Virus record (IMG/VR): IMGVR_UViG_3300028008_000152
Location: 1-20,158 of that record
Source: a virus
Length of the DNA stretch: 20,158 nt
Direction: 5' to 3' (one strand)
Part shown: piece after piece, positions 7,774 through 20,158 of the stretch
Layout of the letters: each line of letters starts with the position of its first letter
Numbering within the stretch: the first letter of the stretch is position 1
The notes under the pieces: model-generated
What the model saw: only the letters and a program-made list of their open reading frames with translations
Database searches by the model: none
Told to the model about the DNA's origin: nothing
Made by a program: the position numbers and the translations under genes

Positions 7774-7781
7774 TATTTATC
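7774..7781 (-). promoter_or_regulatory. T4-type late promoter (GATAAATA) for the 204-703-634 aa unit
   Basis: On the minus strand the sequence reads CGATAAATAC, identical over ten bases to the box at 3108-3115. It contains the TAA stop of the giant gene (7777-7779) and ends 21 bases before ATG 7752. No further late box is seen in front of the 703- and 634-aa genes. Confidence 0.75.
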
Positions 7782-10700
7782 GCGGCAAGTCAACTGTTGA
7801 GTCACGTAAGAATCTAGCTATGTCAGAATCTGCTTTACTCAGTTGAGTACCTGGATTTGTCCATATTATACCGCTACGTCTTACAACAGTTACCTTAACG
7901 TTTTCTGTTGGGGTTGTGGTTAATGTTAGTGTAGAACCATTCACACTAAACTCTGCCGGAAGTGTAACATCACCCTCCGGACTATCTTGATATGTTGGAT
8001 TTAATGATACGTAACTACTAATTGCGTTTTTACGTAAACGTTTGCCGCCAACAAATACTTCAAATTCGTTAATACTACTTGCAACAAAATCTAAAGTATA
8101 CGTACTTGATATACCGTCTGCTATAAACTGTGTTGTAAGTGTTTCGTCTTTGTACGGCATTACTGATGTCAAGCCACTGTTAAACACTGTAGTACCTTCA
8201 ATATGTGTATCTTTTACACCTGTACCTAATGTACCACGTCTTAGTTGACTCAATACATTGTCGTTTCTTACAAAATATTCTATTCTTTCGCCACCTATAA
8301 ATATTACACCTGGAACACTACTTGTTGCATCTGGAATAGGCAATGTACTTCCATCGCTTATTGTAATCTTTTGGTCATACCAATTTAAGTCTGTAACTAA
8401 TTGTATACCAGCAGTATCATCTAAACGCTTATAATGAGTACGGTTAAGCATATCTTTGAACTGGCTCCAACCATATTTGTTTACTGACTGTGTTTCTGCA
8501 AAATGTATTAATTCAATTACATCATTTTGTGCAATAGGAATATTAATTTTTACATATTTTTTATTATCTGTTACTTGGTACTGGATACTTGGTAATAATA
8601 ATTGACCGTTTATAGTAATCCAAACATATTCAGCATCTATAGCCGGAGTAGGTAATTCAATAAGACCAGCTGTTAAGTGATTAAACTTATACCAATCATC
8701 AGTATTAGGTGTAAGTGTAACTCTAGAAATTACATCTAGTTGCTGTCTTTCAAATCTTTGGCTATCATGATTACTAAATTGGTAAACTGTAAGTACATCA
8801 TTTTCGTTATATGCACTGTCAAGGTATATAGTTCCTGGTGTGTCTACAAATTCTCCACCAGCATCAATATAACCAAATGCATATTGTCCATCATTTACAA
8901 GATAAACATCAAGGATGTCACCTGTACTATGTCCTACTGCTGTTTTAATTCTTACAATACTACTTCCTGCAGAACTAGACGCACCAGTAAATGTCCAATC
9001 TTGCAAGTATGTTAATTTCTTACCGTTAATAAAAACTTGTAAGCCTTTGTTGTTTACTGATCCTGGCGGAATTTGGAAATTATCTAATTGATATTCTCTT
9101 GTTGCCGCTGCCATTGTAAACTTTTGTGTATATCCTGCATTTAAAATAATATCATTAACTTTTACTATAGTTTGCCACGGAACAGGTGTAGTAGTAAACG
9201 GTGTTGTATTTAATGCATAGGAAACTGTGCTACCGTCTAGTGTAAAGTTTTGTATGCCAACTTCACTGTAGTTTTGGACGTCTCCACCTTCAAAGAATGC
9301 AAAGTTAATTACACTCCCTGCAGCAGGAGGTGTTGCAAATTTAATTAATGCATTTCCGCTAATACCATCTGGCTTACGACTTTTTACAACAACATTTTCT
9401 AATTTTTGTCCGTCAAGTGTAATTACTGATTGCAAATTATCAGCAAAACGTACATTCGTTAAGAATCTTGCTGTACTTCCGTCTGCTACAAAATTATCAA
9501 TATCTATTATTTTTGTTCCGCTAACACCTAGTACTGCTAGATGTATTTTAGATCCAACTATTGGTGCAGTATTAAATGTAATAGTTTTAGCATTATAGTC
9601 TATTGTATATTCAGTGCTTGCAATTATAGCATAATTTATTTTTACAAATAAACTGTCTTGCTGTATTACTTCTGCTCCAAAATTAAACACAGTAGTTGTA
9701 CCATCGCCAGTGTAGTTCCTACTTGTAATTTTACTACTTCCGTCTGACGGTCTTTCGTAAACTTTAATATCTAATGTATCAAGTACTTGTCCAGGAACTA
9801 ACTCTTCAGGACCTGCACTTGTAGTTGGTGTTACAAATCCGTCACCGTCAATATTAATATCAGCTGCAGATATACCTGTTGCTGTACTGTAGTTTAGTGC
9901 GCCACCTTTTATAAGTGTATCATAACTGTTAGGTTCTGGTAAGTATGTTCCGTCACTAGTTGATTTTCTAAATATAATTATATCAGTATTACTAATTGAA
10001 ACAGCTTCTTCGTCAAATACTACTAAGTCTGTTGGAAGTGTACCATCGTCTGTTCTTGACCAACCAGTTTGTCCTGCTCCTGTTATACTTTGTATAACTG
10101 CATTTGGATTAGTTGGTGTACTTGGATAGTTAGGATCATCAATTCTTACATTATTTTTATATACATGATACTGTACTCCAGTTTCTAATACTTTAGCAAA
10201 AGTAAAAGTTGTTGTACTATCATCTAATTCAAAAATCTCATCTTCAAATGTTTCATCATATGAATCCCAAGTATCTCCTCCACTATCAAATCCACGACCT
10301 TGTTCAAATTCAAAACTCTTAACTTCAACTCCGCCGTAATCTAAGCCAGTCATAAGTTGTTTTAAATCAGTTACATAATTGCCATTCTTAGGAATAAAGT
10401 TATTAATCCTATCCTGTGCTTGCATTATGTCACTTGATAGTTTATACTCAATTAAAATTGTTTCGTTTAACTTAGGTAAATTTACAAATAATATCTGTCC
10501 AAAATATCTATCATATCCTTTGCTAACATCAAGTTTGTTTGTAAAAGTATATTCACTGTCTAATGCTTCTACATTGTTTACATAAACTTTTATATTTGAC
10601 TTATCTAAATCCATTGGCCAACTTAGATCATATTCAAATTTACTTCCACTAGCAACAAATGTTTCTGATTTGTTTAAGTTTGTATAAACGTATGTTCCTG

Positions 10701-13700
10701 TTGTTCTATCAAATTTTACACTAGTATGTAATCCACGTACAGGACTATCACCAATTTGTATACCGTATGTTGCTTTTTCACCTGTATCAGATATATTATC
10801 TAATGATTCAATTGTTGGAGCACTGTAGAATCCTGAACCTGCGTTAACTATTTTAACTCCAGTTACTTTACCGTTTGTTCCTATAGTTGTTTCTAATTCA
10901 ACTCCAGAGCCGCCGCCTCCTGATACTTTAAGCACAGGTGGACTAAAATATCCACTTCCTTGATTAACTACAGTTACTTTTACAACTTTATAACTGCTGT
11001 TGTCTAACCAATTTTTATTTGGATAAGTTTCAATATCTGCATTTGTGCCAACTAATGTATTAGACTGTACTTTTACATTTTGTGGAACTATTTTTCCTTC
11101 TACTACACTATAAGATGCTGGTAAATCAAAGTCAGTAACTACTGTTTGTGTATTGTCAAGTCCTTCGTATGCACTTAGATATTCACGTATTTTTGTTCCA
11201 AAAGGTTTAACTTCTTTAATATATGCTTCATAGCTAGGAAGACTATCATTATTAAATGTAATATCTTTTCTTAAACTTCCAACATTATGTTTTGCTTTTA
11301 TAAAGCTAGTTTTAAATGCCCAGTCAATATAAGTCTGCTCACTAAATGCATAACGTAAACTAGCAAAGAATAATTCATTAAATTTAACTTGTAGATCATT
11401 AATGAATAAATTATCCTTAATAGTGTTTAATATTATTCTTAATTCAGTACGTGGTTCACTGTCAAAGATTTTAGTATCAAAACTAATAGTATCAAATCCG
11501 GTAAATGCTGCTTCTGAATCATATAACGTTTCGTTAAATTTAATTGTACCATTTTGTCTACCAATTGTTTTGTAGTTGATTGTATAATCTTCAGTATCTT
11601 GGCTGTCTATTTTTTCAAGAAGTAACCAACCACCTGATCCAATATTACTGATTTTTACTACATTACTAATACCAGCGTCTAACTGTGTAAGTTCGTAAGC
11701 ATTGTCAATCAAATAATCTATGTCAGTAACTTCACTATATCCTGTTGCATACCAGTCTTTGTAGTCCCAAAATAGTTTTGTGTCATACGCTTGGCTTTTT
11801 ACTCTATTCCAAGTTCTAGCAACTGTGTCTCTTTCGTATAATGCCCATTTACCTAAAATTGTGTTGTCGCTGGACACTAGTACAGTAAACGGTCTAACAG
11901 TTAATATAACATTATCAGAATAATTTTCGCCGCTTTCTAAAATAGTTACACTAGACACTTTTCCAAGTGCGTCAATTGTTGTTTGTAATACTGCACCAGA
12001 ACCTAAACCTGTTACAGTAACTAGCGGAGCATTTCTATATCCTCTACCTGGGTCAGTAATTAATACGTTTGTAATTTTACCATTAACAACCACTGGTGTA
12101 AGAACAGCCTGTGATGCTTTAGCAACTCCAACAAATCCTAGATCATCTAACGTGTCAATTTTTACATCATATAAATTTGAAACTACTGTTGGTTCAGGAT
12201 CATTCTTATTCAAAGAAGTAATAATTTTATCATCAACAATTAAGTTTTCTGATAGCACTAAGTTTGTACGTTCGATAAACTGTTTTAAAGCTTCGTATCT
12301 ATTTTTAAACCAGCTTTGTCTTGGCTTGTTCAATGCGCCATATTTTTGTTTAGGACTTAGATATGGATCTGGAACAATTCTGTCTTGTTCATCGTATCCA
12401 CTTAAACTATCAAACCATTTACGTACAATATCGTTGTTAGGTTGACTTGTTTCTAATCCTTCACTAATAATTTGATACTGGTTATGTATATTCTGTGTTT
12501 GGTTAGGTATTGTCCAGTACTGTGTACTAAGTGCAACCTCAGTGCCTTTAATATATTTTTCAGCATTGTAAAGTACAAATTGTGACGGACTTATAAGTGC
12601 AGCAAACGTATATCCTTTAGCAATAGGATCTTGTATATAATCTGCAATATCAAAAATACTAGTATTTCTAAATTCTACATCCGGAACAGTCTTTTTATTC
12701 TTTACCCAGAAATAATAATTTGTTTTAAATATTTTTGCAACACCGTCGTATATTTTACGTGTACTATATGTGGCATCGCCATATAAACTTGTTCCGCTAA
12801 ATCCTTTTGCAAATCCATTTTCAGTATCAGCCTGAGCGTCCCATTCACTTGGAATTACTGGTGATTGTACCCATTCATATACATCGATTATATTTCCTTG
12901 GAATATTTTACTCCAGTTCTGTGTGCTAAAAACGACATCGCCTTGATATGGGTTAAAGAATTTTGCATTTGTTAAATCCCACCATACTTCGCCTACATGT
13001 TTTTCGCCCCAACTGTTTGTAGGATCAATTACTTGACCTGTAGAAGATAAATCGTATAGTGCAGGGTCATAATAAGTTTTATATGTTAAATCTTGTTCAG
13101 CAATGCCTGCAACTTTACCTTGAATTGGATCAATATAATCTATATAAGTTAAAAGTTCATTGTCCTTTGTATTATACAAGAACATTTTTTTAATTTTGTT
13201 TAGGTCAACTGTTGGCTTGTCAGATCTATAAATTTGCCAAATGTTTTCATTTCTATTATTTTTAAAATCAATTACGTTGCCAAGTCTTGTGCCGTCAACT
13301 CTATTAGGCAATCCAACATAAAAATGATTGTTTCTAGCAAGTATATTATTACCAAAATAATTAATGTTTGGATCTAATAATTCTGTACTAGGTATTTGAA
13401 TAGTTTGTGCAAAGATTAAATCTTGTTTAACTTTTTCATAAACATAAACTACTCCAGCATTATCATTAATTGTATTAAATGCTGTAAATCCTTGATCTAA
13501 AATAGTTTCTCCAGAGTCAAATATAGTTTTAGTTGCCATATCAGCATCTTTTGCAGAAACAAATAGTTGATCGCCGTCAAAGTCTAATCGCCATCCAAAT
13601 TTTTCACCTTGTTCATTGTTTGGACTTTTTAGTGTTTGAGCAATTTCAAATACACCATTAACTTGTTTGTAGATATAAATTATACCTTGATCAGCTTTAT

Positions 13701-16700
13701 AATTATCGTTATACGGCGCACTTATTGCTATTACTGTGCCGTCATTTGAAAGAGCTAGTGCATGTCCAAACCCTGATGTTATATCAGGAGCATCTATTTC
13801 TTGCGAACGTTCAAAGTGTCCATTGTTAGCTCTATATACAACAACTTTATTTGTACTATCGTTATACATTGCATTAGTAATTAAAACTTCGCCCGAGTTT
13901 GCTACATCAAATTCGCTTCCAAAATCTACTAGGCCGGCTTGGTCTAATACTGTATTGCCGTCACTTACACTTAGTCCTGTGCTGTTTGGAATATAACCTA
14001 CATAGTCAACTAAATCATCTGTTGATGTCCAATCATTAGCATCAAATGCTCCTGGAGCAACGTTAGTTTTAGCAACATAAAGTACACCACCAACATATAC
14101 AATGTCGTCTGTAAAATAATTTAAACTTTCGTCAAATGTGCCTTTAAACTTTTTATTCTTAGCATAATCCCAATTGTATGCTATATTATTTTCTGTACCT
14201 TTTTTAATAAAATAAATTTTACCAGGTAAACTTGTAGTACCGTTGCCTGCAGCGCCGATCATACCTCTATATAAATCATTATTTTTTGTAATTTTTATAC
14301 TTGAACCTAATTTATAGTTAGTAGCCTTTTCAGGAACAGTGTAAGAACTAATTAAATCATATCGACCAAACGTTGTTTTACTATAGATAGCATAGATTCC
14401 CTCGTTAGTCAACCCACTAGCAGTACCTGTTATATCAGTTGGGATTTTATAAGTTTGTTCCCATTCATTATTAATTGCACTAGGCGCATTTGCAGGACGA
14501 GGAATACCATTAACATTATCTTGTTGATAGAACCAATATTCTGCATCAGTTATATAATCAATTCCTGTAGGAACACTAAGATTGGTTGCATTTTGGAATA
14601 CTAACATTTTACCAATATTATCAGCTGGTAGTCCTAAACTTACAAATTGTATTTGTCCAATTATTCTATCTGCTTGATATGTTGGATTTGGATCGCCCGG
14701 TATTAATTTAAATTCAATTTCAGCATTTTGTCCGTAGTCGTCACCTTTTGACCACACACCTGTAACACTTTTTATAAAGATTGTTGCATTTAATCCGTCT
14801 CTTTGATAATATGTTACAACACCAGTTGCTCCAGTTGTTTTATCTTCTACACTTTGTCCAACTTTTGGTTCAAAAGGATTTCCAGATGCATCAAACTTTG
14901 TAAAGTCAAAATTAATGTATCCGTCCCATACATCATAAATCGTTTGCAATTTATTTGTAATTGTAGTTGTTAAATTTAATGCTGTAATATCTTTAATAAT
15001 ACCAGTTCCGTATTGAGGAAGTTGGTTAACATAAAAATTAATTGTATCACCTTGGTTAACTATATCAGTTACCGGCTTCGGAGCTCTAACTACATACAAG
15101 TCAGATAATATAGGACTGTTGTTGCCAAACGCTCCCGGTAATCCTTGACTACTTAATACTCGAATATAACTATTAAACGTATTTTGACTATCTAATACTG
15201 CACTATCAAAATCTAAAATATTATAATAATATCTATTTGACGATTCACTAGGCCTAATTACATCAGCAAATATAAGTCCTCTACCTTGATCTTTGTTAGT
15301 AGTTGCTGATGTTGGCGTATAAGACGGAGCAGTTATGTATAAAAATCCGCCTAGTTCAGTACTAGTATCTACGCTGTCAGTTGGTCCTTGCTTTTCGTAT
15401 TGTCCAATAAAGTCACCATCATTTCTAAATAAACTATCTAAAGAATTAAATGAACCGTTTACATCTTTTAAGTATATAACTAATTCAGCACCTTCATTGT
15501 ACACATAGTCAACAGTACCTGATCCTGTTTCTGTTTGTACAATGTCGTTAAGTTCAACTAAGTTAGTTGATGAATTAACATACAAAATTACATCAATTTT
15601 CTTTTGTACAACATGTCCGGCATCTAAGTAGGCTTCTGTAATACTAGGAAAACTGCCAGCAAATGGTGCTTGCTGTGCTAGTGCAGCTAAACTTTGATTA
15701 GAATATGTTATTGAATTCCATGCTAGTTTAACAGTGTCATTTAGTCCAATGCCTCTGTATATGTCTAAAGGAGCTCTAATAAGAATGTGATCAGTTACTA
15801 CATTTTGGAATGCATATTGGTTAGTCACTGTATCAATTGCATAGTTACCTGTTAGTAACATTGGAATATCTACAGTGTTTAAATTTTCAACGTTAAGTTG
15901 ATCAATTACATCTGTTACAGAATCAAAACTGTTGTATACTACATTTGCTACTTGAGGTTGTATATCTACCACCGAACGCCAAAGCTGTTGGTTAGAAGAA
16001 ACTATTGATCCTTTTGGATACGGATCGGTTGCTACAAAACTACCTTCGTATTTTGTTTTTACATTTGATGCATCAGGAGAACCTACTATAATAAAATCTC
16101 CATCTGGTGAAATATCAAGTCCTGCTCCAAAGCGTTCTAAATCGTTACCGTATTTTACTGGTTCTATTACTTGTGATTGAACAAAGTTTATACTATCAGA
16201 TGCTCTAGTATAGATATAAACTTTCCCGTCATTTTCATCTGGAGCACCTACAACTAATGTAGTATTACGACTGTCAACTGCCATTGAAGTAGCATATGAT
16301 AAGTCTACAGCTGATGAATCTTTTTGCACTTTTAGTTGTTCAGTAAAATTATTTGTATTTTTGATTACTGACCAATTTCCGTTAAAATTATCAATCCAAT
16401 GTAGATCGCCTTCATCTAAGTTTTTCTGTAATACAGTATTAGCATCCGGAATTGATGCACTTCTTACTGAAAGGAATTTAGTAATATTTCCTTTGCACTC
16501 TGCAATTTCTTGAACAGCAGACGAAGTTACTAATGTAATTACATTCTTATCTACTTTTGATACTATATAAAATTTATCTAAAGTAGTATTTCCAACATTT
16601 GACATTCCAATAACATCGTCTACAATAATATCTGTAACGTTTGTTGTTAATGTAATATTAAATTCAGTGCTACCTGCTTCAATGCTTTCAACAATATAAT

Positions 16701-19700
16701 CAGTGTCAACGTGTTTGTATACATTCCAATTAAGATTGTCATTGCCTACCCAAACATACTGGCCTCTTTTAATATCTGATATATTATAATCTGCAAGATT
16801 TCTATATGTTGTTGCAATACCTCTAACATCTGCTTGATTAACATATCCTGCATCTTTGATATAACTTTTGTTTACGTTTAGTGCAGGGAATGGCTGATGG
16901 TTATAATTTTTTGTTTTCTGATATACTTCATATGGTAATATTCTATAAACTAAATCTGTTTCATTGCCAGTAGTGCTATTAACTAATTCAATAGGCTGAG
17001 GGCTAAGTCTAAATTTACTTTCATCTAATAGTAATTCAAATTCTTCAAACCCTTCAGCAGCGCCATACTGACCATCTTTAATAGCCCACTCTTCATAAAA
17101 TTCTAAACTATCTTTGTCAGCACTACTTAATACATCAAACAATTTAGTAAGTGCATTTTTAGTACCTTTGTCTTGTAACATTCCTTGATAGAATTTATAT
17201 TGACTTACATCATCATTAACAATGTTTTCTAAATACTGTCGTTTTTGGTAACCAATTAAATGCTGTGCTACTTTTTGTTGTTCTGTATCAAAGTTGTCAC
17301 TATCTAAGTCATAAAAATCACTAAACTGATTTACTTTATAATCAAAGTTAGTATATAATCCAGCTTTAGGCTTATCATCTAAACGATGCCAATCTTGTGC
17401 ATCAAAGTTTTCTTTACCTGAAAGTTTTTTAATTGCACTATAATAAAATTCTTTATACTTTACAATATCTCCGACTGCATAATCTGTCCACTGTTGCCAG
17501 TTTGTTACAGTTGCATCGTCATAGACAAACCCAGGTATATTTAAACTACCGTCCCAATCCTGTGTTATATATCCAAGTACCTTTATTCGTTCTTGTCTAT
17601 ATCCTGGTTGAGTATCGTATATTATGTCTCCAAATACTGTTTTGTTATCTATCAGTAATACATGTTCTTTTTGTATTAAGGGAAGTTTAATTGCAAAAAT
17701 ACCTTCAGCAGTATTTTTTGGAGTTAAAATAAATTCGTTAGGCGAACGCCCTACACTACTAAATTCTTCTACTAAAGGAGTTCCGTCTGATTGTAATAAC
17801 GTATAACCGTATTCGCCGCCAAATACATTAGCAACCATATTATATTGGCTTACAAATTTAATCTGTTTACTTGCCGGACTTAGTGTAATTACACTACCTT
17901 CACCCCATTTTTGTGTAGTCCAGAATAAAAACTCATTTACACTATGGCGCCAATCAGTTAATATCTTTTCTTCACCTTCGTAATAATCAAATACAAAGCC
18001 TTGATCTTTTAAGTATTCTCCGTACCCTAATAAAAAGTCAACTACGTCTTGTATTTTTGCAAATATTTTTCCATAGTCAGCAGTTAGAACAATATTTTTA
18101 TTAAATTGCTTTCGAACAAATGCATCACGGCCACCTATAAGAGGTAAACTTGCAAGTTTAGCAAACTTAGTATTATCAAAAGAACCTGTACTTGTATGTG
18201 CTTCTTTTACTCTATAGTAAGATCCTTGATATTCAACGTTTGCTCCGGCTACATAATTTTTATTAGAGTCCCATATTAAAAATGATTCACTTATTCCGCC
18301 TATATTAATACTTGGGTCTCGTTGTGTACTAACAGTTTGGTAATATGTAAACGATGATGCTTGGGTATCGTAACCTTTTACAACATAACCATCACTACGT
18401 CTTTCTATAATTACACCACTATAACTAACAATTTTAGTAGGTGAACTTGTGTTTAAAAATATTTTATAATTTTCAAAAGGAACAAATACATTACCTTGAT
18501 TAGTTGGTGTTCTACTATCAAGAATTAACTTAAATTTTTCTTTATCAGTAAATCCTGAAAGTTTATACCCAAGCTGATTATTAATAGTAGTAATATTTTC
18601 TTTATACTCTTTATACAAATCTAATACACTTGTACTCATATAGTTAGATATGTAATTTACTATACCACTTGTATATACTTGTGTTGTATCTTCAGATGTA
18701 TTTGGAAATACAATATCTTTAAGTTGAAAACGTTTTTGAGTTGGTTTATAAACAATTTCATTGGCAATATTTTTTACTTGATTTATTCTATCAAATCCTG
18801 TAGCAAACAACTGTGCTGGTTTATTAATTGCAAATGCTTTTACTATACTAAAAGGATATTGTGAACTTGAACGCCAGGCACTTTCTACAGGCGATCCGTC
18901 ACCAAATATAAAACTTTGATCAATAAATGTTGGATCAAAGAATTTAACATATCCTGCATCTAATGGTGATAAAAGATTACCATTACTGTCAGCAGGTATA
19001 TGTCCTGTAAGACCAGGTCGCTTATAATTGTTTAAAACTTTAAATTTTTTGTTTGGTTCTCTTACAACTCCGTCTTCAAGATCTTGCCATAGTAGCGTAT
19101 TCTCTTTTGTGTAAGGAGCTGGTCCGTATTGTGTTTCCCACCAAGTAGGTTTAACACTAAAGCCTAGCATTTCCCAAGGATGAGTATGTGGACGATCAGT
19201 ATCAAATGCTTGTTTATATACTTCTCTCCAAAAACCTGGAAGTAATACATCTTGTTTATTTTGACTACCAGTATAATTAAATGTAAATCTATTAGTTCTT
19301 TCAAAGAAATTATGTAGTGTATAATCTTGATCAATAAACTTTGACCATGATATAAAATCGCCTAGTATAGTTTTATCAATGAAACTTTTAGTAACTCCGG
19401 TATTTCTAAAATCGCCGCCAACTAATGAATGTATATCAAACAATGTAGAATCATATGATACTTTAATGTTATTATAAATTCTTCTTTCTAATTCTAAAAG
19501 TATGTCATCTCTATAATCATTAAACGCAATTATTTTACTGCCATCGTGTCCTTGAATAACTTGTTGAGATTCTAAATATGTGTTGTCAGTATATTTTACA
19601 GGTTCGTATGCAGGATATAATCCTAATTTAGTTGGTGTTGGAGGAACATATGATCCATTAGTAGTTTCATATTCGTAAATATCAACAACATCATCTTGTT

Positions 19701-20158
19701 GTTTTGTAGCAGTAATTAACGCATACCCTTCTGAGTTAAACGTATAATCTTTGTTGTGTACTAACTGTACACCGTTAATATAAATTTGTACTGCTTTTCT
19801 TGATGCACTTGTTAGCGAAAACATACTTGACAAAGGAAAATATAAATCATCAACATCATCTATAATTCTAGTTGTCTTTTTTGTTGCACCAATTGGAACC
19901 ATATCACTAAAGAAAAACGGTTGTGATTTAGTTTTATCTTTGTTTATATCTTGTAAGATTTTATCCACATGATCTTTTATTGCACCTTGAAAACCTAAGT
20001 CTTCGGCTTTTTGTAAAAATAATCTTTTAAATACTGAATATTCTTTACTTGCATATTCTATACTTTTTACAATATTACTATTGTTATCTGTTGAATGATA
20101 CAATGGTAAATTTAGTGGTACACTGTGTTGTAAAAATCTACGACCCAGGGCAGTAACA
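7777..20158 (-). CDS. Giant virion structural protein, at least 4126 aa (5' end beyond window)
   Basis: Residue numbers below count from the TTG at 20103, which is not the real start: the frame continues 18 codons upstream (...LGRRFLQHSVPLNLP) to the edge without stop, ATG or ribosome site. The visible protein is mostly beta. It has an early 'YINGVQLVHNKDYTF' repeat (~103), CBM5/12-like motifs (~608-651, 865-913, 1985-2031), a helical block (~940-1070; YKFYQGMLQDKGTKNALTKL), an FG-GAP-like propeller in two parts (~1265-1348 and 2052-2268), a 'GEVWWDLTNAKFFNPYQGD' segment, two GxGY double repeats (~2675-2738, 3038-3103), about eight 'INGxxL' repeats (~3160-4080), and 'PGVIFIGGERIEYF...QLRRGTLGTGV' (~3928-3960). 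Only one Cys (residue 1203) was found. It contains no catalytic motif or membrane segment I recognise. Giant proteins of this kind occur in T4-like marine phages; a baseplate or long-fibre role is inferred. Confidence 0.85.
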   Translation of the reverse strand, partial: VTALGRRFLQHSVPLNLPLYHSTDNNSNIVKSIEYASKEYSVFKRLFLQKAEDLGFQGAIKDHVDKILQDINKDKTKSQPFFFSDMVPIGATKKTTRIIDDVDDLYFPLSSMFSLTSASRKAVQIYINGVQLVHNKDYTFNSEGYALITATKQQDDVVDIYEYETTNGSYVPPTPTKLGLYPAYEPVKYTDNTYLESQQVIQGHDGSKIIAFNDYRDDILLELERRIYNNIKVSYDSTLFDIHSLVGGDFRNTGVTKSFIDKTILGDFISWSKFIDQDYTLHNFFERTNRFTFNYTGSQNKQDVLLPGFWREVYKQAFDTDRPHTHPWEMLGFSVKPTWWETQYGPAPYTKENTLLWQDLEDGVVREPNKKFKVLNNYKRPGLTGHIPADSNGNLLSPLDAGYVKFFDPTFIDQSFIFGDGSPVESAWRSSSQYPFSIVKAFAINKPAQLFATGFDRINQVKNIANEIVYKPTQKRFQLKDIVFPNTSEDTTQVYTSGIVNYISNYMSTSVLDLYKEYKENITTINNQLGYKLSGFTDKEKFKLILDSRTPTNQGNVFVPFENYKIFLNTSSPTKIVSYSGVIIERRSDGYVVKGYDTQASSFTYYQTVSTQRDPSINIGGISESFLIWDSNKNYVAGANVEYQGSYYRVKEAHTSTGSFDNTKFAKLASLPLIGGRDAFVRKQFNKNIVLTADYGKIFAKIQDVVDFLLGYGEYLKDQGFVFDYYEGEEKILTDWRHSVNEFLFWTTQKWGEGSVITLSPASKQIKFVSQYNMVANVFGGEYGYTLLQSDGTPLVEEFSSVGRSPNEFILTPKNTAEGIFAIKLPLIQKEHVLLIDNKTVFGDIIYDTQPGYRQERIKVLGYITQDWDGSLNIPGFVYDDATVTNWQQWTDYAVGDIVKYKEFYYSAIKKLSGKENFDAQDWHRLDDKPKAGLYTNFDYKVNQFSDFYDLDSDNFDTEQQKVAQHLIGYQKRQYLENIVNDDVSQYKFYQGMLQDKGTKNALTKLFDVLSSADKDSLEFYEEWAIKDGQYGAAEGFEEFELLLDESKFRLSPQPIELVNSTTGNETDLVYRILPYEVYQKTKNYNHQPFPALNVNKSYIKDAGYVNQADVRGIATTYRNLADYNISDIKRGQYVWVGNDNLNWNVYKHVDTDYIVESIEAGSTEFNITLTTNVTDIIVDDVIGMSNVGNTTLDKFYIVSKVDKNVITLVTSSAVQEIAECKGNITKFLSVRSASIPDANTVLQKNLDEGDLHWIDNFNGNWSVIKNTNNFTEQLKVQKDSSAVDLSYATSMAVDSRNTTLVVGAPDENDGKVYIYTRASDSINFVQSQVIEPVKYGNDLERFGAGLDISPDGDFIIVGSPDASNVKTKYEGSFVATDPYPKGSIVSSNQQLWRSVVDIQPQVANVVYNSFDSVTDVIDQLNVENLNTVDIPMLLTGNYAIDTVTNQYAFQNVVTDHILIRAPLDIYRGIGLNDTVKLAWNSITYSNQSLAALAQQAPFAGSFPSITEAYLDAGHVVQKKIDVILYVNSSTNLVELNDIVQTETGSGTVDYVYNEGAELVIYLKDVNGSFNSLDSLFRNDGDFIGQYEKQGPTDSVDTSTELGGFLYITAPSYTPTSATTNKDQGRGLIFADVIRPSESSNRYYYNILDFDSAVLDSQNTFNSYIRVLSSQGLPGAFGNNSPILSDLYVVRAPKPVTDIVNQGDTINFYVNQLPQYGTGIIKDITALNLTTTITNKLQTIYDVWDGYINFDFTKFDASGNPFEPKVGQSVEDKTTGATGVVTYYQRDGLNATIFIKSVTGVWSKGDDYGQNAEIEFKLIPGDPNPTYQADRIIGQIQFVSLGLPADNIGKMLVFQNATNLSVPTGIDYITDAEYWFYQQDNVNGIPRPANAPSAINNEWEQTYKIPTDITGTASGLTNEGIYAIYSKTTFGRYDLISSYTVPEKATNYKLGSSIKITKNNDLYRGMIGAAGNGTTSLPGKIYFIKKGTENNIAYNWDYAKNKKFKGTFDESLNYFTDDIVYVGGVLYVAKTNVAPGAFDANDWTSTDDLVDYVGYIPNSTGLSVSDGNTVLDQAGLVDFGSEFDVANSGEVLITNAMYNDSTNKVVVYRANNGHFERSQEIDAPDITSGFGHALALSNDGTVIAISAPYNDNYKADQGIIYIYKQVNGVFEIAQTLKSPNNEQGEKFGWRLDFDGDQLFVSAKDADMATKTIFDSGETILDQGFTAFNTINDNAGVVYVYEKVKQDLIFAQTIQIPSTELLDPNINYFGNNILARNNHFYVGLPNRVDGTRLGNVIDFKNNRNENIWQIYRSDKPTVDLNKIKKMFLYNTKDNELLTYIDYIDPIQGKVAGIAEQDLTYKTYYDPALYDLSSTGQVIDPTNSWGEKHVGEVWWDLTNAKFFNPYQGDVVFSTQNWSKIFQGNIIDVYEWVQSPVIPSEWDAQADTENGFAKGFSGTSLYGDATYSTRKIYDGVAKIFKTNYYFWVKNKKTVPDVEFRNTSIFDIADYIQDPIAKGYTFAALISPSQFVLYNAEKYIKGTEVALSTQYWTIPNQTQNIHNQYQIISEGLETSQPNNDIVRKWFDSLSGYDEQDRIVPDPYLSPKQKYGALNKPRQSWFKNRYEALKQFIERTNLVLSENLIVDDKIITSLNKNDPEPTVVSNLYDVKIDTLDDLGFVGVAKASQAVLTPVVVNGKITNVLITDPGRGYRNAPLVTVTGLGSGAVLQTTIDALGKVSSVTILESGENYSDNVILTVRPFTVLVSSDNTILGKWALYERDTVARTWNRVKSQAYDTKLFWDYKDWYATGYSEVTDIDYLIDNAYELTQLDAGISNVVKISNIGSGGWLLLEKIDSQDTEDYTINYKTIGRQNGTIKFNETLYDSEAAFTGFDTISFDTKIFDSEPRTELRIILNTIKDNLFINDLQVKFNELFFASLRYAFSEQTYIDWAFKTSFIKAKHNVGSLRKDITFNNDSLPSYEAYIKEVKPFGTKIREYLSAYEGLDNTQTVVTDFDLPASYSVVEGKIVPQNVKVQSNTLVGTNADIETYPNKNWLDNSSYKVVKVTVVNQGSGYFSPPVLKVSGGGGSGVELETTIGTNGKVTGVKIVNAGSGFYSAPTIESLDNISDTGEKATYGIQIGDSPVRGLHTSVKFDRTTGTYVYTNLNKSETFVASGSKFEYDLSWPMDLDKSNIKVYVNNVEALDSEYTFTNKLDVSKGYDRYFGQILFVNLPKLNETILIEYKLSSDIMQAQDRINNFIPKNGNYVTDLKQLMTGLDYGGVEVKSFEFEQGRGFDSGGDTWDSYDETFEDEIFELDDSTTTFTFAKVLETGVQYHVYKNNVRIDDPNYPSTPTNPNAVIQSITGAGQTGWSRTDDGTLPTDLVVFDEEAVSISNTDIIIFRKSTSDGTYLPEPNSYDTLIKGGALNYSTATGISAADINIDGDGFVTPTTSAGPEELVPGQVLDTLDIKVYERPSDGSSKITSRNYTGDGTTTVFNFGAEVIQQDSLFVKINYAIIASTEYTIDYNAKTITFNTAPIVGSKIHLAVLGVSGTKIIDIDNFVADGSTARFLTNVRFADNLQSVITLDGQKLENVVVKSRKPDGISGNALIKFATPPAAGSVINFAFFEGGDVQNYSEVGIQNFTLDGSTVSYALNTTPFTTTPVPWQTIVKVNDIILNAGYTQKFTMAAATREYQLDNFQIPPGSVNNKGLQVFINGKKLTYLQDWTFTGASSSAGSSIVRIKTAVGHSTGDILDVYLVNDGQYAFGYIDAGGEFVDTPGTIYLDSAYNENDVLTVYQFSNHDSQRFERQQLDVISRVTLTPNTDDWYKFNHLTAGLIELPTPAIDAEYVWITINGQLLLPSIQYQVTDNKKYVKINIPIAQNDVIELIHFAETQSVNKYGWSQFKDMLNRTHYKRLDDTAGIQLVTDLNWYDQKITISDGSTLPIPDATSSVPGVIFIGGERIEYFVRNDNVLSQLRRGTLGTGVKDTHIEGTTVFNSGLTSVMPYKDETLTTQFIADGISSTYTLDFVASSINEFEVFVGGKRLRKNAISSYVSLNPTYQDSPEGDVTLPAEFSVNGSTLTLTTTPTENVKVTVVRRSGIIWTNPGTQLSKADSDIARFLRDSTVDLPR
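7865..10620 (-). repeat. C-terminal array of about eight 'xVxINGxxL' beta repeats in the giant protein
   Basis: Recurring units pair a 'V-x-I/V-N/G-G-x-x-L/I' turn with a following hydrophobic strand. Examples are KVYVNNVEALDSEYTF, VITLDGQKLENVVV, QVFINGKKLTYLQDWTF, ITINGQLLLPSIQYQV and EVFVGGKRLRKNAIS. Spacing is roughly 70-130 residues. The pattern is that of phage fibre or adhesin beta domains; identity between units is low, so the count is approximate. Confidence 0.55.
10795..10990 (-). repeat. GxGY double repeat, second copy
   Basis: The segment encodes VVNQGSGYFSPPVLKVSGGG, a linker, and then KVTGVKIVNAGSGFYSAPTI. Two 'GSG(Y/F)xxxP' units are separated by about 35 residues. This matches the copy at 11890-12080 in layout and spacing. 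Confidence 0.6.
11890..12080 (-). repeat. GxGY double repeat, first copy
   Basis: The segment encodes VLITDPGRGYRNAPLVTVTG, then GKVSSVTILESGENYSDNVI. It has the same architecture as 10795-10990, including a 'TTID/TTIG...GKV' linker in the middle, so the pair is an internal duplication in the protein. Confidence 0.6.
13300..13950 (-). other. FG-GAP-like propeller, second part (about four blades)
   Basis: Consecutive units start with 'FG': FGSEFDVANSGEVLI, FGHALALSNDGTVIAISAPY, FGWRLDFDGDQLFVSA and FGNNILARNNHFYVGLPNRV. Several close with a 'G-V/I-x-Y-V/I-Y' strand (QGIIYIYKQ, GVVYVYEK). This is the integrin-alpha/FG-GAP pattern. Confidence 0.6.
14010..14150 (-). other. CBM5/12-like motif 3 in the giant protein
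   Basis: The segment reads FDESLNYFTDDIVYVGGVLY, then VAKTNVAPGAFDANDW. It fits 'W/Y-xx-G/D-D-x-V-x-Y-xG-xx-Y-xx-x...F-D-xx-x-W', the pattern of chitin- or cellulose-binding CBM5/12 modules, although the leading aromatic is Tyr. Confidence 0.5.
16060..16310 (-). other. FG-GAP-like propeller, first part (about two blades)
   Basis: The segment encodes ATSMAVDSRNTTLVVGAPDE followed by GKVYIYTR, then FGAGLDISPDGDFIIVGSPD. The 'VVGAPD...GKVYIY' and 'FG-x-x-LDIS-x-DGD-x-x-IVGSPD' elements are close to the FG-GAP consensus. Confidence 0.6.
17365..17510 (-). other. CBM5/12-like motif 2 in the giant protein
   Basis: The segment encodes WQQWTDYAVGDIVKYKEFYY, then FDAQDWHRLDDKP. This is the best fit of the three to the CBM5/12 pattern, with Trp, 'Y-xx-GD-x-V-x-Y', a paired Tyr, and 'FD-xx-DW-x-x-L'. 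Confidence 0.6.
18150..18280 (-). other. CBM5/12-like motif 1 in the giant protein
   Basis: The segment encodes IWDSNKNYVAGANVEYQGSY, then YRVKEAHTSTGSFDNTKF. It has the same 'W...Y-V-xG-x-x-V-x-Y-x-G-x-Y-Y...F' layout, with Lys-Phe in place of the final Trp. Confidence 0.55.

Follow-up and report, generated by a model that had tools for sequence, protein, structure and literature searches.

A predicted seven-bladed FG-GAP-type propeller with a large domain nested in one blade of a giant T4-like phage structural protein

The stretch of viral DNA analysed here (IMG/VR virus record IMGVR_UViG_3300028008_000152, positions 1 to 20,158; 20,158 nucleotides, hereafter the window) carries on its minus strand a giant open reading frame (ORF) that holds a predicted FG-GAP-type propeller. 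The ORF matches PHROGs family phrog_10938, 'virion structural protein', at E 2.3e-231. Its 5' end is cut by the contig end, so that it runs off the window. Relatives with both ends present measure 4,951–5,585 amino acids from stop to stop, and about 800 N-terminal residues are therefore missing from the window ORF. Shorter frames occur in the type represented by locus L152 (4,694 amino acids) and at L042 (3875–14914), where the ORF stops after 3,680 amino acids near the sequence end, below the other closed ORFs, at what may be a true end or a sequence error. The encoded protein is one of the largest in uncultured marine T4-like phages. The ORF and the parts of its propeller are listed below, with residues numbered on P0001 from the TTG at 20103.

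7777..20157, minus strand: giant ORF for a virion structural protein, including the propeller
16324..16344, minus strand: N-terminal strand, probably closing blade 7 (residues 1254–1260; DSSP, and VIA-align pairing of model residue 71 with integrin residue 1)
16165..16287, minus strand: blade 1, four strands (1273–1313; profile, model, profile of insert-less relatives)
16078..16122, minus strand: blade 2, strands A and B (1328–1342; profile, model, profile of insert-less relatives)
14338..14400, minus strand: blade 2, strands C and D (1902–1922; model, homology to L194, profile split)
14164..14310, minus strand: blade 3 (1932–1980; model, profile of insert-less relatives)
13792..13932, minus strand: blade 4 (2058–2104; profile, model)
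13627..13758, minus strand: blade 5, the best FG-GAP_2 match (2116–2159; Pfam, profile, model)
13399..13599, minus strand: blade 6, with a 33-residue loop between strands B and C (2169–2235; profile, model)
13261..13344, minus strand: blade 7, strands A to C (2254–2281; model, VIA-align, profile)

FG-GAP repeats lie on both sides of a long gap, at the places where a first-pass annotation of the sequence had put them. Pfam family PF14312 (FG-GAP_2) scored 32.8 bits on residues 1201–2287 and 29.5 bits on the whole ORF against a cut-off of 23, and 15 of 16 aligned relatives matched it at E <= 0.01; PF01839 (FG-GAP) had no match in the window. A sequence profile of the propeller region recovered an integrin alpha-4 blade from the PDB (E 4.9e-4). 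Compared with blade 5, profiles gave probabilities of 98.2 for blade 1, 98.0 for the first half of blade 2, 97.9 for blade 4 and 96.1 for blade 6. Ten control windows stepped through the intervening insert, one overlapping the GGFLYITAP stretch and the last extending 14 residues beyond the insert, reached at most 15.7 against four reference blades. These comparisons clearly point to mutual homology between blades on opposite sides of the gap. Support from sequence is weak for blade 3 (best probability 24) and blade 7 (21), which barely exceed the controls, while strands C and D of blade 2 (11.4) do not exceed them; these three parts rest on the model and the relatives.

Structure prediction brings the two parts together in a single ring. 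An AlphaFold2 model of residues 1181–2340 reached a mean predicted local distance difference test score (pLDDT) of 86.5. It was built on a 52-sequence alignment of the window and 51 relatives, drawn from 83 loci with near-copies and truncated loci left out; one of the two underlying searches kept the best 80 of 396 loci, and the loci were found partly by patterns taken from the insert or its border. Read through DSSP and VIA-align, and with support from relatives, the model fits one ring of seven four-stranded blades, probably closed by pairing of strands from the two ends of the chain. VIA-align superposed it on integrin alpha-M over 352 residues (Z 25.2, 3.0 Å, model residues 71..1105), and whole Gbeta/WD40 propellers aligned over 285–309 residues at Z ~24, tied in Z with the integrin rows.

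The first-pass annotation had proposed that the two parts are halves of one propeller, and had named as the check a structure prediction showing one closed ring with inserts leaving from blade loops. The model, the VIA-align span and the insert-less relatives described below all speak in its favour. Of the six or seven blades it allowed, seven fit and six find no support. Its four or so later blades (~2052–2268) are located at 2058–2281; its two early ones (~1265–1348) resolve into one whole blade and the first half of another, preceded by the N-terminal strand, the probable closure of blade 7. As far as prediction and sequence comparison go, the two FG-GAP-like parts are well supported as one seven-bladed propeller spanning residues ~1254–2281.

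The gap contains a domain that is predicted to fold by itself within blade 2. Its features are as follows.

14401..16077, minus strand: nested insert, 559 residues, in the B-C loop of blade 2 (1343–1901)
15382..15594, minus strand: first beta-barrel of the insert (model 162–232), weakly like domain V of T4 and KP1 gp7 (VIA-align)
15256..15357, minus strand: GGFLYITAPSY...GRGLIFADV, two insert strands just after the first barrel (profile, models)
14638..14925, minus strand: second beta-barrel of the insert (model 385–481), weakly like aIF2gamma/EF-Tu barrels (VIA-align, best Z 6.7 over roughly 80 residues)

Modelled alone, residues 1343–1901 gave a pLDDT of 93.7 and a predicted template modelling score (pTM) of 0.86, with mostly strands. 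All 52 aligned sequences carry the insert, at 549–655 residues, and its mean pairwise identity (0.448) lies within the range of the blades (0.416–0.469). Prediction and relatives together support an independently folding domain. The insertion had first been put at ~700 residues; the excess over 559 consists of strands C and D of blade 2, the whole of blade 3 and a small carbohydrate-binding-module (CBM)-like module with its linker. The GGFLYITAPSY...GRGLIFADV segment, correctly placed by the first-pass annotation, was likened there to a displaced blade strand. It is not detectable as a blade (probability at most 2.5) and belongs to the insert that folds by itself in prediction.

The fold of the insert offers a hint of likeness to a baseplate protein. 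Its two top VIA-align rows are KP1 gp7 (9f4a; Z 7.7, 70 residues, 2.3 Å) and T4 gp7 (5hx2_A; Z 6.7, 71 residues, 2.2 Å), both aligned with the first barrel at gp7 domain V, which in T4 gp7 is residues 766–861 (Pfam Gp7_5th). The likeness is a hint only, as unrelated translation-factor barrels also reach Z 6.7. A Pfam search of the insert matched no family, and Foldseek against the PDB found nothing at E <= 0.001. Foldseek against BFVD returned 20 matches at E <= 0.001, which include cyanophage structural proteins; none has a template modelling (TM) score above 0.18. Foldseek alignments of both the full model and the insert, with TM below 0.4, were set aside as fold evidence.

In a few relatives the propeller occurs without the large domain. 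Because the first loci had come partly through insert-derived patterns, we ran a second search with a profile built after the propeller. Among the best 80 of its 574 loci, 68 carry the insert, nine keep the propeller but not the large domain in it, and three are truncated and unjudgeable. The nine come from nine contigs and represent three types. In L152, L153, L154, L156 and L157 (identical over the compared piece) and in L171, blade 2 has no large insert and no CBM-like profile match; in the L152 type blade 2 reads complete within an open 4,694-residue frame. L194, L197 and L198 have a CBM-like module of ~65–70 residues in blade 2 where the window carries the large insert, and blade 2 of the L194 type is then completed by a segment with homology to residues ~1896–1924 of the window (8.9e-5).

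A 440-position profile of these insert-less propellers finds both parts of the window propeller: model residues 56–177 match positions 1–111 (5e-10) and residues 660–1075 match positions 80–402 (9e-28). The profile pieces lie more than 400 residues apart in 51 of the 52 aligned sequences. In 30 the split into two pieces falls cleanly at profile positions 98–135, and in 17 of these without overlap, as in L012 (5–114 and 124–439). The evidence that blade 2 is interrupted thus goes beyond structure prediction. The same relatives bear on the reading that two independent small propellers, or unrelated beta domains, flank a long middle region. The first part by itself has fewer than two blades and the second part has four, which would suit it, as would the appearance in the Foldseek list of Elp2 and DDB1, which are multi-propeller proteins. 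However, VIA-align spans both model halves against single seven-bladed propellers, the middle region folds as its own unit in prediction, and nine loci of three types have a propeller with ~70 extra residues or an ordinary loop in blade 2. We regard two propellers as very improbable.

Phylogeny suggests that the insert was lost rather than recently gained. We built a tree of the flanking segments from 72 distinct sequences among 87 proteins (nine copies were dropped, and six had no anchor). Six jumbo-phage homologues without a detected propeller fall on one side, and four distinct insert-less rows form one clade (99/93) inside the insert-bearing rows, with two outside forks at 87/97 and 87/98. 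Subject to the rooting, to the long jumbo-phage branches and to the calling of L200 as insert-bearing from match length, the tree favours a single loss in one clade over late gain. Stepwise growth from no propeller through a bare propeller to a nested one is attractive by lengths and is disfavoured by the nesting of the insert-less clade. L200 and L201 represent a 30%-identical relative. Their contigs, of 153 kb and 335 kb, belong to a Neomarinimicrobiota metagenome-assembled genome and may be large phage contigs that were binned together with other DNA.

The tree position, together with the count of 68 insert-bearing loci among 80 and only nine without, would also fit an insert that is an ancient and obligatory part of the fold, with gaps in assembly or degeneration of copies behind the shorter forms. 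The open frame and complete-reading blade 2 of the L152 type, and the spread of the nine loci over nine contigs, tell against this, and we consider it improbable.

Smaller CBM5/12-like modules appear at several loops of the propeller. Two are marked in the window, and a conserved stretch follows the ring.

15949..16041, minus strand: CBM5/12-like start of the insert (matches in L194; Pfam CBM_5_12 below cut-off in L014)
14014..14163, minus strand: CBM5/12-like module between blades 3 and 4 (family profile matches L194, 9e-17; Pfam in L022)
13099..13248, minus strand: conserved post-propeller stretch IKKMFLYNTK...DYIDPIQGK, common to phages without a detected propeller

The first 33 positions of the insert profile match L194 at the spot that has no large domain (5.3e-5), and the profile of the second module matches the same blade 2 spot (1.1e-8). 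This second module fills, with its linker, residues 1981–2057. Here a profile of 16 aligned relatives matches two solved structures, the tail spike gp124 (8fqc) at E 4.6e-4 and a putative tail fibre (9rkv) at E 0.008. The CBM-like motif of the first-pass annotation holds in relatives, where Pfam CBM_5_12 passes its cut-off in L015 between strand D of blade 1 and strand A of blade 2 (D1-A2, 5.5e-8) and in L022 at D3-A4, and stays below it at the insert start of L014 (20.4 vs 26.2). It does not hold at Pfam level in the window, where the two propeller-region segments gave no match to CBM5/12 (PF02839). L015 (10001–13834), with its extra module between blades 1 and 2, also has a much longer blade 3 B-C loop.

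Length variation concentrates in one class of loops. Across the 52 sequences, 11 of 14 B-C and D-A loops (63 cases) have members at least eight residues longer than the window's, against none of 13 A-B and C-D loops (Fisher p 3.4e-5, treating loops as independent although the rows are related). By general propeller topology, B-C and D-A loops share one face.

Gene order points to the baseplate. A gp6-like sequence lies just upstream of the giant gene in all 68 loci with at least 600 nucleotides there, the gp6 position being cut off in the window itself; the upstream gene in L011 is baseplate wedge by PHROGs. In T4, gene 7 follows gene 6, matching this place. The PA5oct homologue gp355, annotated as detected by mass spectrometry (ESI-MS/MS), comes after two baseplate-wedge genes. 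PMC5259590 places the phage CBB structural protein CBB_236 beside CBB_237, the gp6, and we infer that CBB_236 is a homologue of the giant protein. PHROGs files phrog_10938 under 'head and packaging', whereas gene order points to the baseplate; residues 3033–3102 of the window ORF match PHROGs 'head closure Hc2'. Compared by sequence with solved structures, the N-terminal ~2,030 residues found no match (best E 0.97).

T4 gp7 and the giant protein share their place directly after gp6, and one insert barrel weakly resembles domain V (Z 6.7–7.7), but the giant protein is about five times longer and has no detectable sequence homology to gp7. Profile comparison showed none: the best alignment, which pairs the first insert barrel with domain V, is non-significant (probability 0.2). 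T4 gp7 residues 212–219 (L088, 5061–8156) contain SNDKGQTW, which looks like an Asp-box, so that gp7 may hold a propeller itself.

We favour, with some confidence, a giant baseplate-wedge protein of T4-like phages at the position of T4 gene 7, with a seven-bladed FG-GAP-type propeller whose nested domain and accessory domains sit on one face. The propeller would act as a rigid hub, its narrow face of A-B and C-D turns held against the baseplate core. The other face, with the B-C and D-A loops, would carry accessory domains outward to neighbouring wedge or fibre subunits or to the host surface: the 559-residue domain on the blade 2 B-C loop and the small CBM5/12-like module on the blade 3–4 loop. 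Because the insert is conserved like the blades, a structural contact within the virion seems more likely than a fast-changing receptor-binding role. The CBM-like modules, one resembling solved tail spike and fibre parts, leave room for an adhesive role.

Such a role is central to a second reading, in which the same architecture is a host-adhesion platform whose insert and CBM-like modules bind cell-surface polysaccharide, much as the I domain of integrins presents a ligand site. CBM5/12-like modules at three places on that face (in L015, L022 and L014), the resemblance of the D3-A4 module to tail spike and putative tail fibre parts, and the confinement of between-strand length variation to B-C and D-A loops all speak for it. 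It is nonetheless the less likely reading, doubtful though not remote, as the insert is conserved as much as the blades and neither Pfam nor PDB Foldseek (E <= 0.001) recognised an enzyme or lectin fold in it.

Several observations weigh against the baseplate-wedge propeller that we favour. The propeller model has a pTM of only 0.69, and strands were assigned to blades solely from DSSP, the first and last residues aligned by VIA-align and the relatives. Foldseek aligned the model poorly to integrins (TM <= 0.39, root-mean-square deviation mostly 10–14 Å), and its first match was an Elongator chain, aligned at 32 Å. In the window the two profile pieces overlap (1–111 vs 80–402), so the split is not clean there, and 22 of the 52 sequences, the window included, are less clean or in more pieces. 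Some length variation falls within strands of the model: the outer strand of blade 5 is longer by up to eight residues, and four are added in blade 7. The loop asymmetry is descriptive and partly reflects how propellers are built, longer loops often lying on one face. The wedge placement draws on gene order and homologues, and the two faces were assigned from general propeller topology. In Salicola phage SCTP-2 (L086) some 90 kb separate giant gene 140 from the gp6 homologue, which sets this phage apart from the five other jumbo phages compared. Profile comparisons with T4 gp7 give probabilities below 1, a lack of matches that divergence could also explain.

Integrins provide the closest structural parallel. 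The propellers of integrin alpha-M, alpha-L and alpha-X likewise have seven FG-GAP blades and supply the highest VIA-align rows (Z 23.6–25.2, 352–359 residues). Their I domain sits between blades 2 and 3, so that in both cases an additional domain branches off close to blade 2; the phage insert differs in being larger, mostly beta and inside the blade 2 B-C loop. The calcium motif D.[DN].[DN]G, of the integrin DxDxDG type, is absent from residues 1181–2340, where a looser pattern gives only DISPDG. It is conceivable, though we hold it tentatively, that phages independently reached the design of I-domain integrins: a seven-bladed FG-GAP ring whose back face stays fixed while entire domains come and go on the front. 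If so, a baseplate protein is remodelled by swapping front-face modules, and one clade seems to have dropped a nested domain of ~500 residues while keeping the ring. Relatives with and without the insert would form a natural pair in which to study how one blade of a propeller can accommodate a domain that exceeds the whole propeller in size. Giant proteins at the gp7 position are perhaps built from exchangeable modules, which would make jumbo-phage tail evolution testable.

Other phages share parts of this arrangement. The phrog_10938 members of the jumbo phages RaK2, 121Q, PA5oct, SCTP-2, Atu_ph07 and Phosso show homology across much of the first ~1,900 residues and again beyond the propeller, and five of the six, SCTP-2 being the exception, have an annotated baseplate-wedge gene upstream. 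They differ in that no propeller was detected in them; its place is a gap of ~100 amino acids in RaK2, 121Q and PA5oct, 360 in SCTP-2, and other repeats in Phosso and Atu_ph07. Gene 108 of Sinorhizobium phage Phosso (L085; ~3,690 amino acids) lies elsewhere in that genome than the giant gp7-position gene. Over the 2,883 of its residues that were scanned, an FG-GAP-like profile hits some two to three dozen times, often weakly. A freshwater phage (LR797314; L023, 14461–15882) encodes a stand-alone FG-GAP protein of 473 amino acids, UFOVP1367_22, downstream of its tape-measure gene.

Our open-access literature search found no paper on this propeller-plus-nested-domain arrangement. To call propellers unusual in a virion protein, as the first-pass annotation did, was too strong: PMC10607447 reports them in the T7 and SU10 nozzles and the K1F endosialidase, with a phAss-1 propeller too, and PMC5259590 places the Kelch-type CBB_552 of phage CBB in the virion. 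The unusual part is a large domain nested within an FG-GAP propeller blade. The CBB Kelch proteins, the T7 and SU10 nozzles and phAss-1 have propeller repeats but are different genes; so are UFOVP1367_22 and Phosso gene 108, in neither of which the insert profile found a match. Domains nested in propellers are known from integrins, and propellers are known from phage virions; the giant protein therefore represents no new category, and the nested-domain variant is what is new.

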